DNA of 64,000 bases, from assembly GCF_030811115.1 (NCBI RefSeq), contig NZ_JAUSQK010000001.1, forward strand, positions 1,922,001 through 1,986,000, read 5' to 3'. Each line of letters begins with the position of its first letter. Within the stretch, counting starts at the first letter, position 1. This document shows, piece by piece, positions 42,784 through 59,250 of the stretch. Source of the stretch: Olsenella profusa DSM 13989. GTDB lineage: Bacteria; Actinomycetota; Coriobacteriia; Coriobacteriales; Atopobiaceae. The position numbers and the translations under genes are program-made. Under the pieces are notes generated by a model. It did no database searches. It had not been told where the DNA came from and saw nothing but the letters and a program-made list of their open reading frames with translations.

Positions 42784-43580
42784 GCGAGAGGAACGAGGGG
42801 GCCAAAGACGGGCGGACACCGGCCCTGTCAGGGGTGTTCTCCCAGGGGATCCTCAAGGACAACCCCGTCCTGCGCCAGATGCTCGGGCTCTGTTCGACGC
42901 TGGCCATCACCACGGCGGTCACGAACGGCATCGGCATGGGGGCGGCCACCACCTTCGTGCTCGTGTGCTCCGGGGTCGTGGTGTCGCTCCTCAGGCGGGT
43001 GATCCCCACCACGGTGCGCCTGCCGGCCTACATCACCATCGTCGCGAGCTTCGTCACCCTCGTGCAGATGCTTGTCAGGGCCCATGCGCCCGCCCTCGAC
43101 GAGAGCCTGGGCATCTACCTGCCGCTCATCGTCGTCAACTGCATCGTCCTCGGGCGTGCCGAGGCCTTCGCCTCCAAGGGCACGCCCGTGAGGGCGGCAG
43201 CGGACGGCCTGGGCATGGGGGTGGGCTACACGCTTGCCCTGGTGCTCGTCTCGGCCATCCGCGAGCTTCTGGGCGCGGGCACCCTCCTGGGGGTGCGTCT
43301 GCTGCCTCCCACCGTGGAGCCCCTGCTCATCATGGTCACGCCGGCGGGGGGCTTCGCCACCCTCTCCGTCGTGATGGCGGCCTCCATCTGGCTGGAGCAG
43401 GCCCGGCAGCGCCGGGCGGGCCTGGCCGCCCGTCCGTCCCGCACGGCGGAGGAGGTCTGCGCGTCATGCGACCTGGGCTGCATGACGGCTGGCAGCGAGT
43501 GCGTCGGGCCTGACGTGGGGGTCTCCCTCGTGCGGACCGAGGGAGCGCTCGCCGGAAGTGGGGAGGGGGGCGAGGCCTGA
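42780..43580 (+). CDS. rnfE: Rnf electron transport complex subunit RnfE
   Basis: A 266-residue polytopic subunit, paralogous to RnfA. The core (GILKDNPVLRQMLGLCSTLAIT, YLPLIVVNCIVLGRAEAFA, ADGLGMGVGYTLALVLVSAIRELLGAG) ends near residue 215. A C-terminal extension of about 50 residues contains CASCDLGCMTAGSEC, an unusual cysteine cluster that could bind metal; it is not part of the core family. The ATG overlaps the rnfG stop. Confidence 0.92.
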   Translation: MSERNEGAKDGRTPALSGVFSQGILKDNPVLRQMLGLCSTLAITTAVTNGIGMGAATTFVLVCSGVVVSLLRRVIPTTVRLPAYITIVASFVTLVQMLVRAHAPALDESLGIYLPLIVVNCIVLGRAEAFASKGTPVRAAADGLGMGVGYTLALVLVSAIRELLGAGTLLGVRLLPPTVEPLLIMVTPAGGFATLSVVMAASIWLEQARQRRAGLAARPSRTAEEVCASCDLGCMTAGSECVGPDVGVSLVRTEGALAGSGEGGEA

Positions 43581-44171
43581 TGGCGACCTACGCGGCGATT
43601 CTCTTCGGCATGATCCTCTCGGACAACCTCGTGCTCGCGAAGTTCATGGGCATGTGCCCCTTCCTGGGCGTCTCGAAGCGGCTTGACTCCGCCGTGGGCA
43701 TGGGGGCGGCCGTCACGCTGGTGATGGTCGTCGCCATGTCGGTCACCTGGCCCATCCAGCAGCTCCTGGACCTCTGGGGCATCGGCTACCTGCAGACCGT
43801 CGCCTTCATCCTCGTCATCGCCATCCTCGTGCAGCTGCTGGAGATGGCCATCCGCAAGCAGTTCCCGCCGCTCTACACGTCGCTCGGTGTGTACCTGCCG
43901 CTCATCACCACCAACTGCGCCGTCTTGGGCGTCACCATCCTTGCCATCGAGGACGGCTACACCTACCTGGAGTCGCTCGTGGCGGCGCTCGGCGGGGGGG
44001 CTGGGGTTCCTCTTTGCCATGATCCTCTTCTGTGGCGTGCGGCGGCGGGTGGAGGAGGCCGACCCTCCTGAGGCCTTCAAGGGCATGCCCATCACACTCA
44101 TGGCCGCCGCCATCGTGGCGATGGCCTTCATGGGCTTCGCGGGCGTCATCGAGAACCTCTTCGGCGTCTAG
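43580..44171 (+). pseudogene. rnfA: rnfA with a one-base frameshift in a G7 tract
   Basis: From ATG 43580 the frame reads a perfect RnfA for about 140 residues (ILSDNLVLAKFMGMCPFLG, YLPLITTNCAVLGV), then leaves frame at the G-run 43994-44000. The remaining RnfA sequence (FLFAMILFCGVRRRV to the GVIENLFGV end at 44171) continues in the next frame. Removing one G restores a protein of about 196 residues, the normal length. RnfA is an essential membrane subunit holding an intramembrane iron site with RnfE. The rest of the operon is intact, so a homopolymer read error or slippage is at least as likely as a dead gene. Confidence 0.85.
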
Positions 44172-45934: not shown

Positions 45935-46339
45935 TTAGCGCGGGGTGTCCTCGCCCTCTTCCTGTGCAGCGAGGGTGATTCTACTAGCCTGGTAGGCTCC
46001 CTGCTCATCCTTATATCTGAAGAAATCAATCGCGATTGTGTCGCCGACTACCACGTCATCCAGCTGATCCTCTATCCCCCAGGCAGCCACGTCGAAGAGT
46101 ACGGTGTCACCCACCCCGAAGTCTTCCTCGGAACTCATACTCGTCTCTTCCACGTGCACTGTGACGAGACCCCTCTCCTGATCGATCGAGAGGACTGTCC
46201 CCCTGCACTCGTAGAGCACCCACACGTTGCCTCCCACCAACCCTTTGTCGGGGGGCTGCTCATAGAGGGTGTAGGCTACCAGCCCCAGAGCGGCGAGGGC
46301 AACCGATAGCAACACGATCCACTTGAGTGCGCTACGCAT
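45935..46339 (-). CDS. Small membrane-anchored protein of unknown function
   Basis: A 134-residue protein: one N-terminal transmembrane helix (about residues 7-26, IVLLSVALAALGLVAYTLY), then an acidic extracellular domain of about 105 residues. The domain looks beta-rich and OB-like (GTVLSIDQERGLVTVHV, FGVGDTVLFDVAAWGI, VGDTIAIDFF). I recognise no named family. The start is the ATG at 46339, 8 bases behind GGAGC. It overlaps the upstream peptidase fragment by 8 bases and is the last gene of the leftward set. A role in self-protection or peptide handling is only a guess from position. Confidence 0.65.
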   Translation of the reverse strand: MRSALKWIVLLSVALAALGLVAYTLYEQPPDKGLVGGNVWVLYECRGTVLSIDQERGLVTVHVEETSMSSEEDFGVGDTVLFDVAAWGIEDQLDDVVVGDTIAIDFFRYKDEQGAYQASRITLAAQEEGEDTPR

Positions 46340-46736
46340 AGACAAAAGCTCCGTAGGTCGTACTGTAGTCCGATGGAACGTATGAGAGGTACATCACTGA
46401 ATCATACCATCCATCAGCGACTACAAGGGTATTGATGGCTTGGCCGGTTGCCTTCTTGGTGGCGATTGCATAGCCTTGTGCACACATCGAGTGTCCTATG
46501 GGGCTTCCGTAGAAAATGGCTGATACTATGCTGTTCCGGCCTGCAGCAACCTGTTGCTTGAAGTCTTCGAAGGATGGCTTGGACACGGTCTGCCCTGTCA
46601 CAAGTGTGCCCTTGTTTTGGGCATATAGCTGAAAACCAGGGGCGATGTGTCGTCTGATGACACATCGAGCTGAATTCCTAGTCCAAAATGCCATCAGATG
46701 TACACTCGTATACCCGTACGTTAGGTCGTTGATCAA
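46332..46736 (-). pseudogene. C-terminal fragment of a papain-like/C39-type cysteine peptidase
   Basis: A 134-codon frame that opens right after a TAA and has only a TTG start with no ribosome site. Its sequence resembles the second half of a C39-type peptidase: FEDFKQQVAAGRNSIV, then GHSMCAQGYAI with the catalytic-type His, and NTLVVADGWYDSV as the Asn/Asp part. The half with the catalytic Cys is missing, and the preceding sequence belongs to the protease-like membrane gene. It is either a remnant or a very short new gene. It overlaps 45935-46339 by 8 bases. Confidence 0.55.
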
Positions 46737-46765: not shown

Positions 46766-47485
46766 CTATCCGATAAGGAACCTTAGGACTACACAGGAGA
46801 TCAACAAGATCGCCAAGCCTCGGATGCAATCTTCAAGGATTCTCCTTGGAGTTTCCTGACAGAGATTGTAGCGTTTGGTTGCTGCAGCTATTGCATAGTA
46901 ACCGTCGCTCTTCATGATTGGTGCAAGATTCGTAATCATCGTGAGCAAAACAAAATCTGATGCGCCCCCAAGTCTGAGCTTTCCCAAGCAAACTATGAGC
47001 AAGAGTGCTGCATTAGCAGCATTGCCAGCGAGATATACGGCCATACGTTTGTAGGTAGGTAGTAAATAGCTATCTGATGTGTCTACATAGAATGTGGGAA
47101 AAATAAAAGTGAACTTGAATCCAATGCCTATCTTGGCCGCAGAATAGAAAAAATGCAGCACTAATGCATGAGCTAGCTCATGCATCGCTACATTTCCTAC
47201 AATAAATATGATTGACAGTGGTAGGGGACATAGACTTGCATGTGGAGAAGATAGCAGAGAAAGCAAAAGTCCAGCAAATATGAGGGCGATTTCAATGCAT
47301 AGAGGGAGAGCATCATCCGAAATCACTAGCTTGCCCCAAAGTATGTCATTGTCTCGAATCTGCTCATATGTTTTTGTGTCTGGATGGTAATACTTACCAT
47401 CCACCCTTATTAATTGCAGCTTTGACGGCGAATCTTCAATATAGAGAGCTCTTCGCCCCCTAATGATTTTAGTTGAGGACTTCAT
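46766..47485 (-). CDS. Site-2-type membrane metalloprotease, EpeP/YydH-like
   Basis: A 239-residue multi-span membrane protein with the zinc site HELAH (residues 102-106, in a hydrophobic segment) and a late MKSDGYYAI motif that supplies the acidic third ligand (NxxPxxxxDG-like: NLAPIMKSDG). About five hydrophobic segments are visible. This is the M50/S2P layout of EpeP (YydH), thought to cut the modified epipeptide from its leader in the membrane. ATG 47485 overlaps the end of the radical SAM gene by 17 bases; the frame is open further upstream. AT-rich codons set it apart from the chromosome around it. Confidence 0.72.
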   Translation of the reverse strand: MKSSTKIIRGRRALYIEDSPSKLQLIRVDGKYYHPDTKTYEQIRDNDILWGKLVISDDALPLCIEIALIFAGLLLSLLSSPHASLCPLPLSIIFIVGNVAMHELAHALVLHFFYSAAKIGIGFKFTFIFPTFYVDTSDSYLLPTYKRMAVYLAGNAANAALLLIVCLGKLRLGGASDFVLLTMITNLAPIMKSDGYYAIAAATKRYNLCQETPRRILEDCIRGLAILLISCVVLRFLIG

Positions 47486-48395
47486 TGCGGAACTGGTTGA
47501 AAAATCGAGTGTCACGGAATAGATATTCACATGCTTCGCATGGGGTTGAAAACTCACTTGGACAGTCAGCCTCATCTGAGATGACATCTAGGAATGGAGT
47601 CAGCCCTTTTGTGAACAATGAGACAAGCAGTTTATTGTGTTTCGTCCGACTGATAACCTTAGAGAGAGGCTCTACTGTCAAATCTCCGATTCTCAGAATC
47701 GTACCTTCAACCACTTGTGAACAGCATGGATAGACTTGAAGTGCGGTGTTGATGAGCAGCGTATGCTTGAGGGCCACTGAACAAGGCAGCTTCTCTTTTC
47801 CAAATCGATAAGGGCGAATGAAGCGTTCTTCATCGAAATTAGTTGCCAGACCCGTTCTCATAACGGGCTGATAAAGGAAATTACAACGATAGGCATATTC
47901 GCCAAGCATATCTAAGACGGTTCCCGCACTCATGGAGTCTTTCAGGAAGCATCCTACGATATCTGTGGGTATTCCTTTGTTCCAAGCGAGATCGATGAGC
48001 GTTTTGATGCTATTTAGGTCGACGTATTTGCAATGGAATTCGTCATAGCTAAACGATATATATTTGATTCGCTGACTATTCCTGGTAAGAAACGAGCTTG
48101 CTTTTTTTGGGTCTCTTCCCCAAAAGCCATTTGTTTTGAGTGATATTCTCATAGGGCGGCCGAAGTCGTAGTCACACACAGCTTGTACGAGATCTGGATG
48201 CATCATTGGCTCACCACCTGTGATACCAACATATGTGATCGACCTTACCTCTTTTATCTGACTGAGCACTGCCGTGAGTTCTTGATGCGTAAGAGTGTGA
48301 TGTTGCTCCTGAAGCTCCGGCTTACCAGCGCAACACATCTTGCATCGTGCGTTGCAGTCATCGGTTAGCACGAGTCCCACGCTATCGAATACCAT
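47469..48395 (-). CDS. Radical SAM peptide-modifying enzyme, EpeE/YydG-like (putative epimerase)
   Basis: A 308-residue radical SAM protein. The cluster motif is CNARCKMC (Cys14, 18, 21), with GGEP near residue 58 and further core motifs. The C-terminal third has extra cysteines (LPCSVALKH, YPCCSQ, CPSEF, CEACEYLF) that could hold a second Fe-S cluster and a catalytic Cys. Size and layout match EpeE (YydG), which converts L-Val and L-Ile of a peptide into D-residues by H-atom abstraction. ATG 48395 is 7 bases behind AGAGGTGG. The gene lies between the ABC permease and the protease genes, overlapping both. Epimerase activity is inferred from the neighbourhood. Confidence 0.75.
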   Translation of the reverse strand: MVFDSVGLVLTDDCNARCKMCCAGKPELQEQHHTLTHQELTAVLSQIKEVRSITYVGITGGEPMMHPDLVQAVCDYDFGRPMRISLKTNGFWGRDPKKASSFLTRNSQRIKYISFSYDEFHCKYVDLNSIKTLIDLAWNKGIPTDIVGCFLKDSMSAGTVLDMLGEYAYRCNFLYQPVMRTGLATNFDEERFIRPYRFGKEKLPCSVALKHTLLINTALQVYPCCSQVVEGTILRIGDLTVEPLSKVISRTKHNKLLVSLFTKGLTPFLDVISDEADCPSEFSTPCEACEYLFRDTRFFNQFRNEVLN

Positions 48396-49742: not shown

Positions 49743-49770
49743 GATGATTGTCCAAAATGGTACACGGAAA

Positions 49771-49800
49771 GGCCCGTGGACTCCATGGAGGCCACGGGCC
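49771..49800 (-). terminator. Partial terminator/attenuator between precursor and transporter genes
   Basis: On the reverse strand GGCCCGTGG pairs with CCACGGGCC (49771-49779 with 49792-49800), with an inner CTCC/GGAG extension, followed by TTTCC. It lies 11 bases past the precursor stop. Such hairpins commonly let the peptide transcript exceed that of the biosynthetic genes. Confidence 0.65.
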
Positions 49801-49810
49801 CCTCGTTGGT

Positions 49811-49972: not shown

Positions 49973-50010
49973 GGCAATCCTCAACTCTTCCTCTCGTTCT
50001 GAATGCGATT

Positions 50011-50029
50011 GCATGCTGGTCGACCATGC
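50011..50029. promoter_or_regulatory. Dyad in the divergent control region of the peptide locus
   Basis: The 19 bases hold an inverted repeat GCATG-N9-CATGC with a nested palindrome TGGTCGACCA. It lies between the precursor start (49972) and the response regulator promoter (50126-50131), 39 bases before the precursor gene on the reverse strand. It is a candidate operator for the response regulator encoded next door. Confidence 0.4.
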
Positions 50030-50125
50030 TTTGCATTGTGCTCGATCAGTCTTAAGGTCAAATAAAGCAGATACTAAGAAAGTCATAAGATGCGCCATGG
50101 AAAAATAACGTATGAGCTGAATGGC

Positions 50126-50131
50126 TATAAT
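50126..50131 (+). promoter_or_regulatory. -10 element of the response regulator operon
   Basis: A perfect TATAAT, 40 bases upstream of the chosen ATG at 50171. No good -35 is visible, as in promoters that need an activator. A transcript starting near 50138 excludes the upstream in-frame start at 50090. Confidence 0.5.
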
Positions 50132-50170
50132 CCAAATTGTGGCAGGATGTCCCGGGAGATGTCGGTTCTC

Positions 50171-50887
50171 ATGCACGAAAAGGTATTGGTGGTAGAGGAC
50201 GACCGGGACATTTCGACCATCGTGATGGACTGCTTGAGTGCCGAGGGATATGAGTGCCATGCAAGCTATGCTGGCAACGATGCACTGAGAGAGTTTGGGG
50301 CCCAGCCCTATGATCTGGTCATCTGCGACCTCATGTTGCCGGGGTGTCCGGGAGAGCGGGTCGTGAGTGCCATAAGGTCAAGAGATAGCACTATACCCAT
50401 ACTCATTATATCTGCCCGTGGAAGTACTTCGGACAAGGTAGATCTCTTGTCGCTTGGCGCAGATGACTATCTGGCCAAGCCCTTTGACATAGCGGAGCTG
50501 ATAGCACGCGTCGGCGTCCAACTGCGTCACACGAGACATGAGGATTCCGAGAAGATCGGCCGTAGTTGGGTCTCAGTGGGTAGGTGGGTGCTGGACCGGG
50601 ATTGCAGGACGCTTGAGATCGACAAGGTTTCGTTGTCTCTGACATGCATAGAGTTCAATCTCGTCGAGGCGCTCGTCAGCCATCCCAAAAGGGTTTTTAC
50701 GCGTCCAGAGCTATTCGAAATTGCCTGGGGCGAACGTTTTTCCAATGATGCAGGGACGGTGAATGTCCATATATCGAACATTCGAACAAAGCTGAGGCCG
50801 ACGGGGACCGATTCCTACATTGATACCGTTTGGGGTGTAGGATTCAGGCTCGTTGTTCCACAAGATGATGGGGAAATCCCCGCGTGA
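50171..50887 (+). CDS. OmpR-family response regulator
   Basis: A 238-residue two-domain regulator. The receiver has the acidic pair at 9-11 (VVEDD), phospho-acceptor Asp53 (VICDLMLPG) and Lys103 (LAKPFD). A winged-helix DNA-binding domain fills the C-terminal half (LTCIEFNLVEALVSHPKRVFTRPELFEIAWG and the DTVWGVGFRL end). ATG 50171 is chosen (MHEKVLVVEDD); ATG 50147 and 50159 have no spaced ribosome site. It is the first gene of a four-gene overlapping set ending with its kinase, and probably acts on the divergent gap. Confidence 0.88.
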   Translation: MHEKVLVVEDDRDISTIVMDCLSAEGYECHASYAGNDALREFGAQPYDLVICDLMLPGCPGERVVSAIRSRDSTIPILIISARGSTSDKVDLLSLGADDYLAKPFDIAELIARVGVQLRHTRHEDSEKIGRSWVSVGRWVLDRDCRTLEIDKVSLSLTCIEFNLVEALVSHPKRVFTRPELFEIAWGERFSNDAGTVNVHISNIRTKLRPTGTDSYIDTVWGVGFRLVVPQDDGEIPA

Positions 50888-51795
50888 ACGCCCTCGAGAC
50901 AGCATCCTTAACGAAGGTGTGGGGTAGGGTGAAGGCCGTCAATGCGGTGTCGATGCATGTAGAGAATGGCGCGATCTATGGGCTTGTCGGTGATGCGGGG
51001 TCTGGAAAAACAACGCTGCTGAGCCTAGCTTCTGGGCTGATGGCTGCTGATACGGGTGAAGTCATCTTGTTCGGTAACCGTTCGACGCGATATTCCCGAA
51101 CTCGTGTTGGGGCGATGCTTGGGCCACAATCCACCATTGGATATCTCACTGCGCTTGATAATCTCATGATCAAGGCCTTGGCCAGTGGATTGGTTGACGC
51201 CCGAGCTCGCTGTATTGAGGTTCTGGATACCCTTGGTGTGAACGATATTAAGGTTCGTGTTAGATATTCTTCAGTCGACCAGCGTGTACGCATCAGAATC
51301 GCGCTCGCCCTTGTCAATAGGCCCGATTTGCTCTTATTGGATGAGCCATTTGTGGGGCTTGACTCTCGTTCGTCCCTTGAACTTAGCTCAACCCTTCTTA
51401 CACTTAACGAGGAAACGGGGATTACCATCGTCATGGCCTCGCGACGAATAGGCTGGCTCCAGTCAATGGCGACACATTATGGTGTCCTGAAACAGGGGCG
51501 CTTACAGCGTGAGGTTTCCACGACACGCCTGCTGGTCGAATGCGATGGCTCAATTAGGCTTCGCACTGTTGATTTGCCGAGGGTTATGGTTCTACTTGAG
51601 GAATCCTTGGGACCCGACTGCATCGAATCGTGTCGCGATATGATGACAGGAGAGGACTATCTTTGCATAAGGGATACCGATGAGTACCTGCTGTCTGGGT
51701 TGCTGCACGATATGGACGCAGAGGTACTTGAGATGTACAGGTCAAGGAGGAGTCCTGAAGAGGTGCTTTTGGATGGTGCAAGGGACTCATCATGA
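50884..51795 (+). CDS. ABC transporter ATP-binding protein, BcrA/LanF immunity type, with degenerate signature
   Basis: A 303-residue ABC ATPase of the bacitracin/lantibiotic-immunity type. Walker A is GDAGSGKTT near residue 37 and Walker B is LLLLDEPFVGLDS. The signature motif, normally LSGGQ, reads YSSVDQ, and the usual H-loop His is replaced by Arg (MASRRIGW). ATP hydrolysis may therefore be altered. A C-terminal extension of about 90 residues follows the ATPase core. GTG 50884 overlaps the regulator stop by 4 bases. It pairs with the next permease; a role in self-protection or peptide sensing is inference. Confidence 0.82.
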   Translation: MNALETASLTKVWGRVKAVNAVSMHVENGAIYGLVGDAGSGKTTLLSLASGLMAADTGEVILFGNRSTRYSRTRVGAMLGPQSTIGYLTALDNLMIKALASGLVDARARCIEVLDTLGVNDIKVRVRYSSVDQRVRIRIALALVNRPDLLLLDEPFVGLDSRSSLELSSTLLTLNEETGITIVMASRRIGWLQSMATHYGVLKQGRLQREVSTTRLLVECDGSIRLRTVDLPRVMVLLEESLGPDCIESCRDMMTGEDYLCIRDTDEYLLSGLLHDMDAEVLEMYRSRRSPEEVLLDGARDSS

Positions 51796-52688
51796 CAAAT
51801 CTGTTATTATCAGATTTTTATCGCATATCGCGGACTAGGCCGTGTTGGATTCTGGCTGTCATCGTTGTTGCCTTAGGTGCTTGGTCAGCACTCGTTGTGT
51901 CGGAGTCGGGCTTGGGTCTTGGTGTATCTGCATCACTCGTCTTTGGCGTGCATGGGTGGTATGGCGCAAGTGTGCCCGCATCCGAAAGCGCAAAGTTTCT
52001 GACGCAAGCGTGGGGGCAGGCCTTTCTTGCGGGTGGCTCATTGACGCTTGTTATCTCGCTTTTTGGTGCGGGCCTCATGTCATCCGACTTCGTATGGGGC
52101 TATGAGTGCAATCTACTGGGAACGGGCTGCTCCAGGCGCCTCTATCTCCTTGAAAAGGTCGTCCTTTGCACAATGGCATCTGCCTTGGTGTTGCTGCTTT
52201 CTGCGGGCGCATCTCGGTTGACGCTTATCGCGAGAGGATTCTCGTTCTCTTTTTCGGAAGAGGCTTGGATGCTTACCGGGTGGCTTGTACTTGCATGGCT
52301 GCATCTCACCGCTTATGCTGCGCTTTCGTTGCTGTTGACTGCCGTTCTCAAAAGTCGAACGAAGGGAATGGTGGTCGGTGCAGCAATGGGATCGGGGATT
52401 ATTGGCATGGCCGTATGGGCGTCTTTCATGATGGCTGCGCGGCAATGGCCCGCTCTTTCGCGGATTGCAACATTGCTTCCCTATTGCAATGGCCAGCTGT
52501 TGGGACAAGGTTCTCAGATTTTCTTTGACATATATGGGAGTACCGAATCGGACGTTGCCAACAGGGTGCTTACGATCTTGGGGAATGCGGGAATCGATCC
52601 GCTGTGGCACATCTTGCTTGTGGACGTTGCCGTCCTTCTGCTGGTGTTGGTAGGCATATGTGCGCTTGGACGCTGGAGCAGACATTGA
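51792..52688 (+). CDS. ABC-2-type transporter permease (putative peptide immunity)
   Basis: A 298-residue membrane protein with about six helices and an early 60-residue extracellular loop, a layout like BcrB/LanE-type permeases. It starts ATGA-overlapped with the ATPase gene and itself overlaps the kinase gene by 31 bases. No substrate can be read from the sequence. Confidence 0.75.
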   Translation: MTNLLLSDFYRISRTRPCWILAVIVVALGAWSALVVSESGLGLGVSASLVFGVHGWYGASVPASESAKFLTQAWGQAFLAGGSLTLVISLFGAGLMSSDFVWGYECNLLGTGCSRRLYLLEKVVLCTMASALVLLLSAGASRLTLIARGFSFSFSEEAWMLTGWLVLAWLHLTAYAALSLLLTAVLKSRTKGMVVGAAMGSGIIGMAVWASFMMAARQWPALSRIATLLPYCNGQLLGQGSQIFFDIYGSTESDVANRVLTILGNAGIDPLWHILLVDVAVLLLVLVGICALGRWSRH

Positions 52689-53587
52689 TTGGCCTGATAG
52701 TTGGAGTGGCACTCGGCTTTCTTTTTGCGAGCCTTATCTATGAGGGTGAGATTCGTCGACAGGGACGAATATTCGAGGACAAGACCTCTTTGGGAAGCAT
52801 TCACATGGGGGCAATGCTTGCTAGCCGAGGATGGAGAAGATTTGCCCGGATAGTGAATGCCCACCTCGCTCTCATGCAGCAGCAATTGAGTGCAAGCCTT
52901 GCGGAGCAGAGATCCTTCAGGCGGGGCTTGTCTGCTCTTGGTCATGATATGCGTACCCCTCTTACCGGTGTGAAGGGATACGTGCAGCTTGCAAGAAGGA
53001 CAGTAGACGATCCTGGGATACAAGCGCGCCTTGATGCCGCAGTCGAAAGAATAGATGCGGCTGAGGGCATGCTTGACAGGCTGCAGGTATACGCGCGGGC
53101 GAATGATCCCGATCGCAGCTACATATATGAGCAGGTGGGAGTGCTGACATTACTGATTGAAGTTCTTGACGATCATGAGATCGAGTTTCGCCAACGGGGA
53201 TGGGAGCCGCGTGTCAGCTTCGAAAACGAAGCGCTTCGAGTTGTTGCCGATCGAGAGGCCCTTCGGAGAGTCCTTGACAATCTCGTTGTTAATGCCTTGC
53301 GTCATGGGGTGTCCCCGCCCTCCCTTTTCCAGCAGGGCGATGCAAACCAATGGAGCCTTAGCATTACAAACGACTTGAAGGAGGGGGAAGCGGTGGATAT
53401 GACTCATCTCTTCGATCGCTTTTGGAAGGCAGATGCCTCGCGCCGTGCGTCTGGCATGGGCTTGGGTCTTTCTATTGCACACTCCCTTGCGCGTGATATG
53501 GGGATGTCTCTGCGAGCCACGACTGGCGATGGCGCCATTAGCTTCATCTTGTCCCCGTTGTGCCGGGACAAGTCGAATACCTGCTAG
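52658..53587 (+). CDS. Sensor histidine kinase with a minimal membrane sensor
   Basis: A 309-residue kinase. A single N-terminal hydrophobic hairpin or helix (about 8-28) is the only membrane part and there is no extracellular sensor domain, as in intramembrane-sensing kinases paired with peptide ABC transporters. The phospho-acceptor is His96 in [14 protein letters not shown]. The ATPase domain has the N box ([12 protein letters not shown]), an F-box-like FDRFWK and the G box ([13 protein letters not shown]). It is the last gene of the regulator-ABC-kinase set and probably senses through the adjacent transporter. The leuS promoter overlaps its stop codon. Confidence 0.87.
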
Positions 53588-58119: not shown

Positions 58120-58463
58120 ATGAGGGAGATGCTCACGCGTTGCACGCTCATCAAGGTGACCGTTGGGGTCGGGACGGTCTTCGTCCTTGCCCCGCCGGCA
58201 GCAACCACGACACCCCCATCGACGAGCCCGTCGCCTCCAAGGGCACCGGCAAGGGGATGAACCCGGTCGAGCTGCTGCTCTGCTCTCTCGGACTACCACG
58301 GCTTCAAGGAGATTCGCATAACCCTCCACTTCCAGATGGAGTCGTCGCAGGAGAGTTGCGATGCCCTCGTGAAGGACGTGGAAGCAAGCTGCCCCGTGAG
58401 CAACACGCTGAGTGGTGGCGCCCTCAAGGTGGTCGCCAACTCGGCCATCATTGAGCCCATGTA
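58120..58463 (+). pseudogene. Broken OsmC-family gene
   Basis: ATG 58120 behind GGGAGGAGG starts an OsmC-like protein, but the sequence changes frame twice. The middle part, in the next frame, reads HDTPIDEPVASKGTGKGMNP and VELLLCSLG. From 58291 the first frame resumes with DYHGFKEIRITLHFQMESSQ and ends CPVSNTLSGGALKVVANSAI. OsmC proteins are peroxiredoxin-like; the first active-site Cys lies in the CSLG part and the second in SCPVS. About 30 residues after CSLG also appear to be deleted. Confidence 0.75.
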
Positions 58464-59250
58464 GGGAGCCACTGGCAGAGGATGGGCCCCCGAGCCGACG
58501 GCTCCCCTCTCCCCACTTGCACGCGGTAGTCGGCCTTGAGCTGACCGTTTCCCATGTGGTCATCCTCCGCGCGCATGAAGGTGGCATCGCGGTCGGTCTT
58601 GGAGAGGAAGCCACGGCCTGCGAGGTCGGTGGCGTTTCTCTCGTTGTGTACCATCTTCTCTCTCCACTCGCCCTCGAGCATGCGCTCGACGCGGCGAAGC
58701 GCCTTGCCTGCGTCGTCTTTGAGACACTTGCCCACGCCTTTCTCCCTGATACGCTTGTTGATGTGCCGTGCGGCCTCGGCGATGGTCTCGGAGTCGACGT
58801 CGCTGGGTCCCTCGGCCGCGAGCCTCTCCTCCTCTGAGCCTGTTCGCATTCGCCTCGATCTTGGTGCCGTCAAGGGTGACGAGGCCCATGTCGGCCAAGA
58901 GGGACATGAACCTGAGAACACCTCTTCGGAGACGGGGCAGATGTGCTCGGAACGGAAACGGTTGACGGTGCTGTGGTCGAGGGGCTGCATGACACAGATC
59001 CAAAGGAATTCAACGTTCTCACACGTCGCCTGGGCGATCCTGTGGGAGGAGCAGATGCCTTGGGCGTAGGCCAGCAGCACCACTTTGAGCATAACCTGTG
59101 GGTCGTGGGCGGGACATCCTCCTCCGGGATAGAGCGCCGTGAGGATGGATCTGTCGATGGACTCCACGACCATATCCACCACGCGGGGAAGGGAGTTCTC
59201 GGGAACAAGGTCGCCGATGTCGGGACAATGATACCAAATGCCAACGTTTC
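58448..59250 (-). pseudogene. IS1182/IS5-type transposase remnant
   Basis: Reverse-strand similarity begins near 59250 (WYHCPDIGDLVPENSLPRVV), without a usable start because a TAG lies just before it. It continues through VLLAYAQGICSSHRIAQATC and DHSTVNRFRSEHICPVSEEV. It then shifts frame for FMSLLADMGLVTLDGTKIEA, with the first catalytic Asp, and returns to the first frame for DSETIAEAARHINKRIREKG and the KADYRVQV end near 58515. The rest of the transposase is missing. Two shifts and a truncated 3' end show it is dead. Confidence 0.8.

Follow-up and report, generated by a model that had tools for sequence, protein, structure and literature searches.

Olsenella profusa is a mouth bacterium, and the source genome of the DNA analysed here, that of strain DSM 13989, is a single contig of 2.62 Mb (NZ_JAUSQK010000001.1). 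A 64,000-nucleotide stretch of this contig (positions 1,922,001 to 1,986,000, hereafter the window) contains a four-gene module for a response regulator, an ATP-binding cassette (ABC) ATPase-like protein, a permease-like protein and a sensor histidine kinase at 50171-53587. A peptide operon is located divergently from this module, and an operator-like repeat array is present in the gap between them. The positions of these features are summarized in Table 1.

Table 1. Features of the peptide operon, the shared gap and the four-gene module in the window
Feature	Coordinates	Strand	Remarks
YydH/LiaK-like HExxH membrane protease P0009	46766..47485	-	NF058609 7.5e-19, below cut-off
YydG/EpeE-like radical SAM peptide epimerase P0008	47469..48401	-	TIGR04078 8.5e-39, 133.8/300 bits, below cut-off
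YydJ-like permease P0007	48382..49107	-	NF058605 2.3e-27, below cut-off
YydI-like ATPase P0006	49101..49742	-	NF058610 1.3e-52, below cut-off; motifs intact by eye
RNA hairpin between precursor and YydI-like ATPase genes	49743..49810	-	-32.1 kcal/mol, z -4.14
Precursor P0005	49811..49972	-	53 aa; C-terminal end ...SPVYLFQNVNATFIGW; 42% identical to the G057 precursor
Shared gap, precursor to regulator start	49973..50170		198 bp
Operator-like array, four direct repeats, period 11	50046..50089	-	CTTATGAC, CTTAGTAT, CTTTATTT, CTTAAGAC
OmpR/PhoB-type response regulator P0001	50171..50887	+	Response_reg PF00072 2e-26; Trans_reg_C PF00486 1e-20 (Pfam)
ABC ATPase-like protein P0002	50884..51795	+	GTG start; ABC_tran PF00005 4.1e-20; Walker A lysine and Walker B DE kept; Q-loop, signature and H-loop lost
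Permease-like integral membrane protein P0003	51792..52688	+	298 aa; about 6-7 hydrophobic segments (hydropathy)
Sensor histidine kinase P0004	52658..53587	+	HisKA 1e-8; HATPase_c 2.4e-12

Four-gene module

The initial annotation described four overlapping genes for an OmpR-type regulator, a BcrA-like ATPase, a permease and a kinase with almost no sensor domain. The reading frames and the Pfam matches confirm this arrangement, and successive frames overlap by 4, 4 and 31 bp. The description of the kinase P0004 is also borne out, because the protein has a single hydrophobic region (best segment at residues 10-28), no extracellular domain according to hydropathy, and no Pfam domain beyond HisKA and HATPase_c that passes the gathering score. 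The permease P0003 matches no Pfam or NCBIfam family and is 26% identical to its counterpart in G057, a metagenome-assembled genome of Coriobacteriia. The NCBIfam family that P0002 matches best is the lantibiotic-protection family TIGR03740 (3.4e-39), with 134.8 bits, below the cut-off of 309.75. At the family level the term BcrA-like is appropriate, but this protein has a non-canonical Q-loop, signature and H-loop. Structures predicted from two-row alignments were poor, with a mean predicted local distance difference test (pLDDT) score of 59.8 for the ATPase and 41.4 for the permease, and were discarded.

The adjacent OmpR-type regulator, ABC ATPase, permease and kinase with one transmembrane segment give the module the layout that is called here, as a working name, the Coriobacteriia regulator-ABC-kinase layout. 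The module appears to derive from this type, which is common in Coriobacteriia, mostly with an intact ATPase. Relatives of the kinase are found at E <= 1e-30 in 36 of 140 family genomes, and 96 of 396 class genomes contain relatives of the regulator at E <= 1e-66. Wide occurrence of the module without the peptide genes, which the initial annotation had named as one of two observations that would together speak against its proposal, is thus seen for the broad family.

Motif loss in the module ATPase

Five ATPase motifs were scored: Walker A, the Glu/Gln of the Q-loop, the signature S.GM[KR], the DE of Walker B, and SH. P0002 keeps Walker A (GSGKTT) and the DE of Walker B, and has GAMLGPQ at the Q-loop, SSVDQ at the signature and ASRR at the H-loop. 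In G057, too, the last three of these motifs are lost from the ATPase, and DD additionally replaces DE. The ATPase of G056, a further species that belongs to one genus with G057, has also lost the Walker A lysine, and its gene is separated from that of the kinase by 11 bp, with no permease gene in between.

For comparison, 65 neighbourhoods were used, of which 25 are from the family (including the O. profusa sister strain F0195 and a paralogous locus of the window's genome) and 40 were hand-picked across genera among the regulator matches. All four module genes are detected together at the BLAST thresholds in 26 of the 40 class loci, and in most of the others one gene is undetected or the contig ends. 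Two of the 65 loci have no regulator, and in four others no ATPase is encoded within 700 bp of the regulator, so that 59 ATPases remain, or 60 with that of the window. When the ATPase is picked by its position beside the regulator, all five motifs are intact in 54 of these 60. The six that are not intact are those of the window, F0195, G057, G056, G019 and L157, the last of which is merely cut by a contig end. The G019 ATPase keeps LSGQ but has lost the Q- and H-loops, and G019 is not part of the regulator group to which the window belongs. All motifs are intact in L038, the paralog from the genome of the window. A pick by alignment score gave 53 of 57 intact; this procedure could miss degenerate copies, and the position-based count is used instead. 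The regulator homologs without an ATPase gene within 700 bp are at L125, L131, L135 and L156; L131 and L135 also have no kinase match, and the ABC genes of L156 are further away.

These motifs suggest that P0002 lacks what is required for normal hydrolysis and that its ATPase activity has probably been lost. As judged from them, it is not the catalytically complete ATPase of a LanFEG/BcrAB-type detoxification ABC. The ABC pair of the module most likely no longer pumps, because the Q-loop, signature and H-loop are lost. A pump or detoxification role of the module at this locus is therefore unlikely, and the role of a conformational sensor is the best alternative. Thus, the decayed ATPase suggests that the module ABC senses rather than pumps. 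The proposal of the initial annotation that the module provides immunity is not supported, since its ATPase has lost three of the five motifs and a YydIJ-like ABC with an intact-looking ATPase is encoded in the peptide operon.

Repeat array in the shared gap

The module and the precursor gene do share one control region, as initially annotated, and this region is the 198-bp gap. PhoB/OmpR-type regulators usually bind direct repeats at 11-bp spacing. The units of the array read CTTATGACTTT, CTTAGTATCTG, CTTTATTTGAC and CTTAAGACTGA in the direction of the cargo (50089-50046), and those at the equivalent place of G057 are TTTATGACTTT, CTTAAGCCTTG, GTTTAGAACGG and CTTAAGACCCT. A four-unit repeat at period 11 is equalled by 1 of 1000 shuffles for the window and by none of 1000 for G057, and the periods 9, 10, 12 and 13 are unremarkable. 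The best 44-bp ungapped match between the gaps of the window and G057 is 28/44, which is equalled by 0 of 2000 dinucleotide shuffles. G056 has the first two units in common with the window (16/20; 5/2000 shuffles), and over 44 bp 268/2000 shuffles are as good. Between G056 and G057, the corresponding values are 6/2000 over 44 bp and 113/2000 over 20 bp.

The only place in the 2.6-Mb genome that matches the core CTTATRACTTTCTTA with at most two mismatches is the exact match inside the gap. Three exact matches to the core occur in the 140 family genomes, each of them in a module gap (window, G056 and F0195), and the gap of G057 contains the core with one mismatch. When the gaps of 63 fetched module regulators are scored for the operator, F0195 and G056 reach 15/15 and G057 14/15, and the other 60 reach 12 at most. 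These scores refer to BLAST-anchored regulator starts in 63 regions, two of which are shortened by contig ends; the outcome is unchanged for 62 regions with motif-rule starts, F0195 being left out. These results suggest that the regulator may bind the repeats. The initial proposal that the module senses the peptide, or its effect on the membrane, and controls the locus is supported by comparison only, namely by the conservation of the repeats and the divergent layout in another genus.

Divergent peptide operon

The best NCBIfam match of each of P0006-P0009 is an epipeptide family, always under the curated cut-off. As judged from these matches, the genes beside the module appear to be a distant yydF/I/J/G/H (epe) set. 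Its product is best named epipeptide-like, and would be epimerised. The epimerase P0008 retains the cysteines of the radical SAM motif CxxxCxxC as well as C-terminal cysteines; C16, C20, C23, C207, C226, C227, C288 and C291 are the same in G057 and in two proteins annotated as YydG. The precursor P0005 matches no Pfam or NCBIfam family. A match to TIGR04077 is absent for P0005 at E up to 0.1 and for the G057 precursor at E up to 1; a Macrococcus YydF matches TIGR04077 at 2.8e-21. The residues common to the two precursors are LED..SPVY...NVNA..IG.

This operon is similar to yydFGHIJ/epeXEPAB of Bacillus subtilis in its five kinds of gene, which appear to encode a small precursor, a radical S-adenosylmethionine (SAM) epimerase, an HExxH membrane protease and a two-gene ABC. 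It differs in gene order (F-I-J-G-H instead of F-G-H-I-J), in the precursor, which is outside TIGR04077, in its Actinomycetota host, and in the divergent two-component/ABC module that adjoins it. The B. subtilis epe locus is controlled by AbrB/Spo0A and FsrA, and the response to its peptide is that of LiaRS, according to the available parts of PMC12871923 and PMC7026026.

The hairpin between the precursor and YydI-like genes is possibly an attenuator or a processing site; a terminator scan of the region did not report it. A small minus-strand open reading frame (ORF) past the protease gene (46332-46736) has weak similarity to C39-like peptidases (E 0.049) and is possibly a remnant.

Relatives of the operon and the regulator

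A P0008-type epimerase is found at E <= 1e-20 in three of the 140 family genomes, namely the window's genome, F0195 and G057. The module is divergent from the peptide operon in all three, the operon of F0195 being split over two contigs. The G057 epimerase is 52-53% identical to that of the window. In G057, the kinase, permease, ATPase and regulator genes are on one strand, and the precursor, YydI, YydJ, epimerase and protease genes are on the other. When an alignment of these two epimerases is searched against 396 phylum genomes, the window itself is the only match at E <= 1e-25. A scan of the named genome collection, which reaches close relatives only, gives two epimerase loci from 55 candidate stretches. 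The YydG family model matches 10 of the 396 class genomes at E <= 1e-15, none of them above the cut-off, and among 14 control genomes it matches B. subtilis alone.

In a tree of 51 rows, consisting of the window, 10 family loci and 40 class loci, the regulators of the window, G056 and G057 cluster together (ultrafast bootstrap 99; Shimodaira-Hasegawa-like approximate likelihood ratio test, SH-aLRT, 98). A kinase tree of 45 rows agrees with this grouping (SH-aLRT 94). Members of this narrow regulator clade were detected in four genomes; the epipeptide locus is present in three of these, and other secreted cargo in the fourth. The fourth is G056, in which the peptide operon is replaced (L036:10042-11025) by genes for two proteins without a match to a known family, one of 218 aa with a weak signal of the twin-arginine translocation (Tat) type (E 0.022) and a hydrophobic one of 99 aa. 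The module therefore seems able to adjoin different cargo, because G056 has this pair instead of the peptide operon. The G056 pair, divergent from a module with a degenerate ATPase, resembles a secreted toxin/immunity-type pair.

A YydG/H/I/J-type locus with an epimerase frame broken by a stop is present in G325 (L071:9134-11969), which is from a different family of the order. There is no regulator or kinase match in the 19-kb stretch that contains it, and an ordinary module with an intact ATPase is located about 23 kb off on the same contig. By eye, a candidate divergent 50-aa precursor at L071 11817-11969 is followed by an inverted repeat. A module of this kind is also absent from the stretches of 8.6 and 9.7 kb inspected of two Macrococcus plasmid yyd loci. 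A light test of novelty in print found no Coriobacteriia epipeptides and no ribosomally synthesized and post-translationally modified peptides (RiPPs) of Olsenella profusa, and the available part of PMC10885120 (epeXEPAB, Actinobacteria) reports no actinobacterial epipeptide.

Genomic setting and the sister strain

The operon and the module lie within one low-GC stretch (about 43-55%), and the flanks are at about 60-70%. In three of three congeners of other species, leuS is preceded by sequence that is found at about 30-35 kb of the window. Since other sequence precedes leuS there, the segment that ends near the kinase stop is not beside leuS in these congeners; the comparison covers the place beside leuS in the three genomes. 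Elsewhere in the window, a presumably RnfA-like frame at 43580-44171 appears to be split in two near 44.0 kb by a frameshift or a sequence error, and a minus-strand ORF at 58448-59182 is presumably IS transposase-like.

F0195 is without 820 bp (window 47107-47926), and the first 158 residues of its epimerase are fused to the C-terminal part of the protease (L060:127-942). Its regulator (L037) has the substitution K103E at what we take to be the conserved receiver lysine. Its ATPase has no amino-acid changes and one synonymous difference over 304 codons, an observation of little weight between strains so closely related. The changes in F0195 may represent shared decay of the peptide and the switch, or draft error. 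The strain also indicates that retention of the module is possible even when the epimerase gene is incomplete.

Discussion

The module resembles BceAB-RS in that a kinase free of a sensor domain is combined with an ABC protein and a regulator. P0004 is such a kinase without an extracellular sensor. Bce-type permeases are large and of the FtsX/MacB type with a big extracellular domain, and P0003 is not of this kind. Unlike BceAB-RS, the window has a short permease with about 6-7 hydrophobic segments and no family match, a kinase with one hydrophobic region, and a motif-degenerate ATPase. In Bce-type systems the transporter itself does the sensing, and it is proposed that ATP-driven cycling of the transporter is read (PMC10314905, in the part available). 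Such hydrolysis-based flux sensing would be expected to fail in the window, because the ATPase is motif-degenerate. The similarity to LanFEG/BcrAB/CprABC-RK is in the best match to TIGR03740, the small permease and the linked two-component system; the differences are the score below the curated cut-off, the loss of catalytic motifs and the single permease gene.

The explanation we favour, at a probability of roughly 0.57, is that an older module of the peptide-response type has become a dedicated, probably hydrolysis-defective sensor and regulator of the divergent epipeptide-like operon, and that self-protection is provided by the YydIJ-like ABC. The complex of the permease and the ATPase-like protein would detect the mature peptide, or the membrane damage caused by it, and would pass a conformational change to the kinase with one transmembrane segment. 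The kinase would then phosphorylate the regulator, which in this form would bind the four 11-bp direct repeats and activate the precursor promoter and probably its own promoter as well. The epimerase and the HExxH protease would turn the precursor into the mature peptide, and the YydIJ-like pair would protect the producer.

Several results weigh against this explanation. The best 20-bp match between the gaps of the window and G057 is reached by 109/2000 shuffles. G056 keeps only the first two repeats, with period 11 equalled by 677/1000 shuffles, so that a full four-repeat array was rejected for this genome. The reversed control of the core also has one match in the genome. At one mismatch or less, the core is found at 15 places in the family, 11 of them elsewhere than in module gaps, and most of these places are background, because the reversed control yields 13. 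A sigma-70 consensus promoter was not found in either gap. The recognition helix T[VI]NVH[VI]S was dropped as a trait specific to the group, because a wider set has it in other modules. The Walker A lysine and the Walker B DE are retained in the window, which leaves room for slow hydrolysis. F0195 keeps the module and the flanking operon at 99.6% despite the truncated epimerase frame, either because the decay is recent or because the module is not tied to the peptide. As for protection by YydIJ, the minimal inhibitory concentration of added peptide for a B. subtilis yydIJ mutant equals that for the wild type (PMC7026026, available part), and a stress reporter in a yydIJ mutant is about 100-fold more sensitive (PMC12871923, available part).

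Three other explanations have to be weighed. As in Bce-like or LanFEG/BcrAB modules, the module may work as a detoxification pump, sensing the peptide and also making the producer immune to it. Its gene content and order match those of class relatives, most of which have intact ATPases, its ATPase is closest to a lantibiotic-protection family, and Walker A and B are kept in the window. This is unlikely, however, because three ATPase motifs (Q-loop, signature, H-loop) are lost in both the window and G057, because the G056 module has no permease gene, and because a second ABC pair is present in the peptide operon. It is rather improbable that the module responds to general envelope stress, having been acquired with the peptide operon and adjoining it without being triggered by the peptide, because both the layout and the 44-bp repeat array in the shared gap are conserved in a second genus. 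What favours such a module is that its relatives are widespread without peptide genes, that F0195 retains it with a truncated epimerase, that matches to the core motif by itself are at least as frequent as those to its control, and that the B. subtilis epipeptide triggers LiaRS, which is outside the yyd locus (PMC7026026, available part).

The loss of ATPase motifs, the absence of a permease gene from the G056 module, and the combination of K103E with a truncated epimerase in F0195 would also be seen if the module were decaying, with the ATPase becoming a pseudogene and only the regulator and the kinase, or none of them, still working. This is considered the least probable of the three, because the ATPase frames remain open and tightly packed in three species, despite identities of the window ATPase of 30% to that of G057 and 28% to that of G056. 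The unchanged ATPase of F0195 points in the same direction, although with little weight because the strains are close.

Beyond a dedicated sensor in the window, it is conceivable, though we regard it as somewhat doubtful, that in the whole clade a hydrolysis-dead ABC, once without the permease, serves purely as the receptor of antimicrobial cargo made by the cell itself, and that the divergent cargo can be exchanged behind a conserved operator of 11-bp repeats. Two genera would have an actinobacterial epipeptide as their cargo, and a third species would have a secreted protein with a small membrane protein.

Epipeptide-like loci have previously been described for Firmicutes (PMC12871923 and PMC10885120, available parts). 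The locus of Olsenella profusa extends them to an actinobacterium, apparently with a switch of its own and with an unrecognised precursor family. If its ATPase has indeed decayed while the gene and the layout are kept, such a natural module would allow sensing to be separated from pumping.

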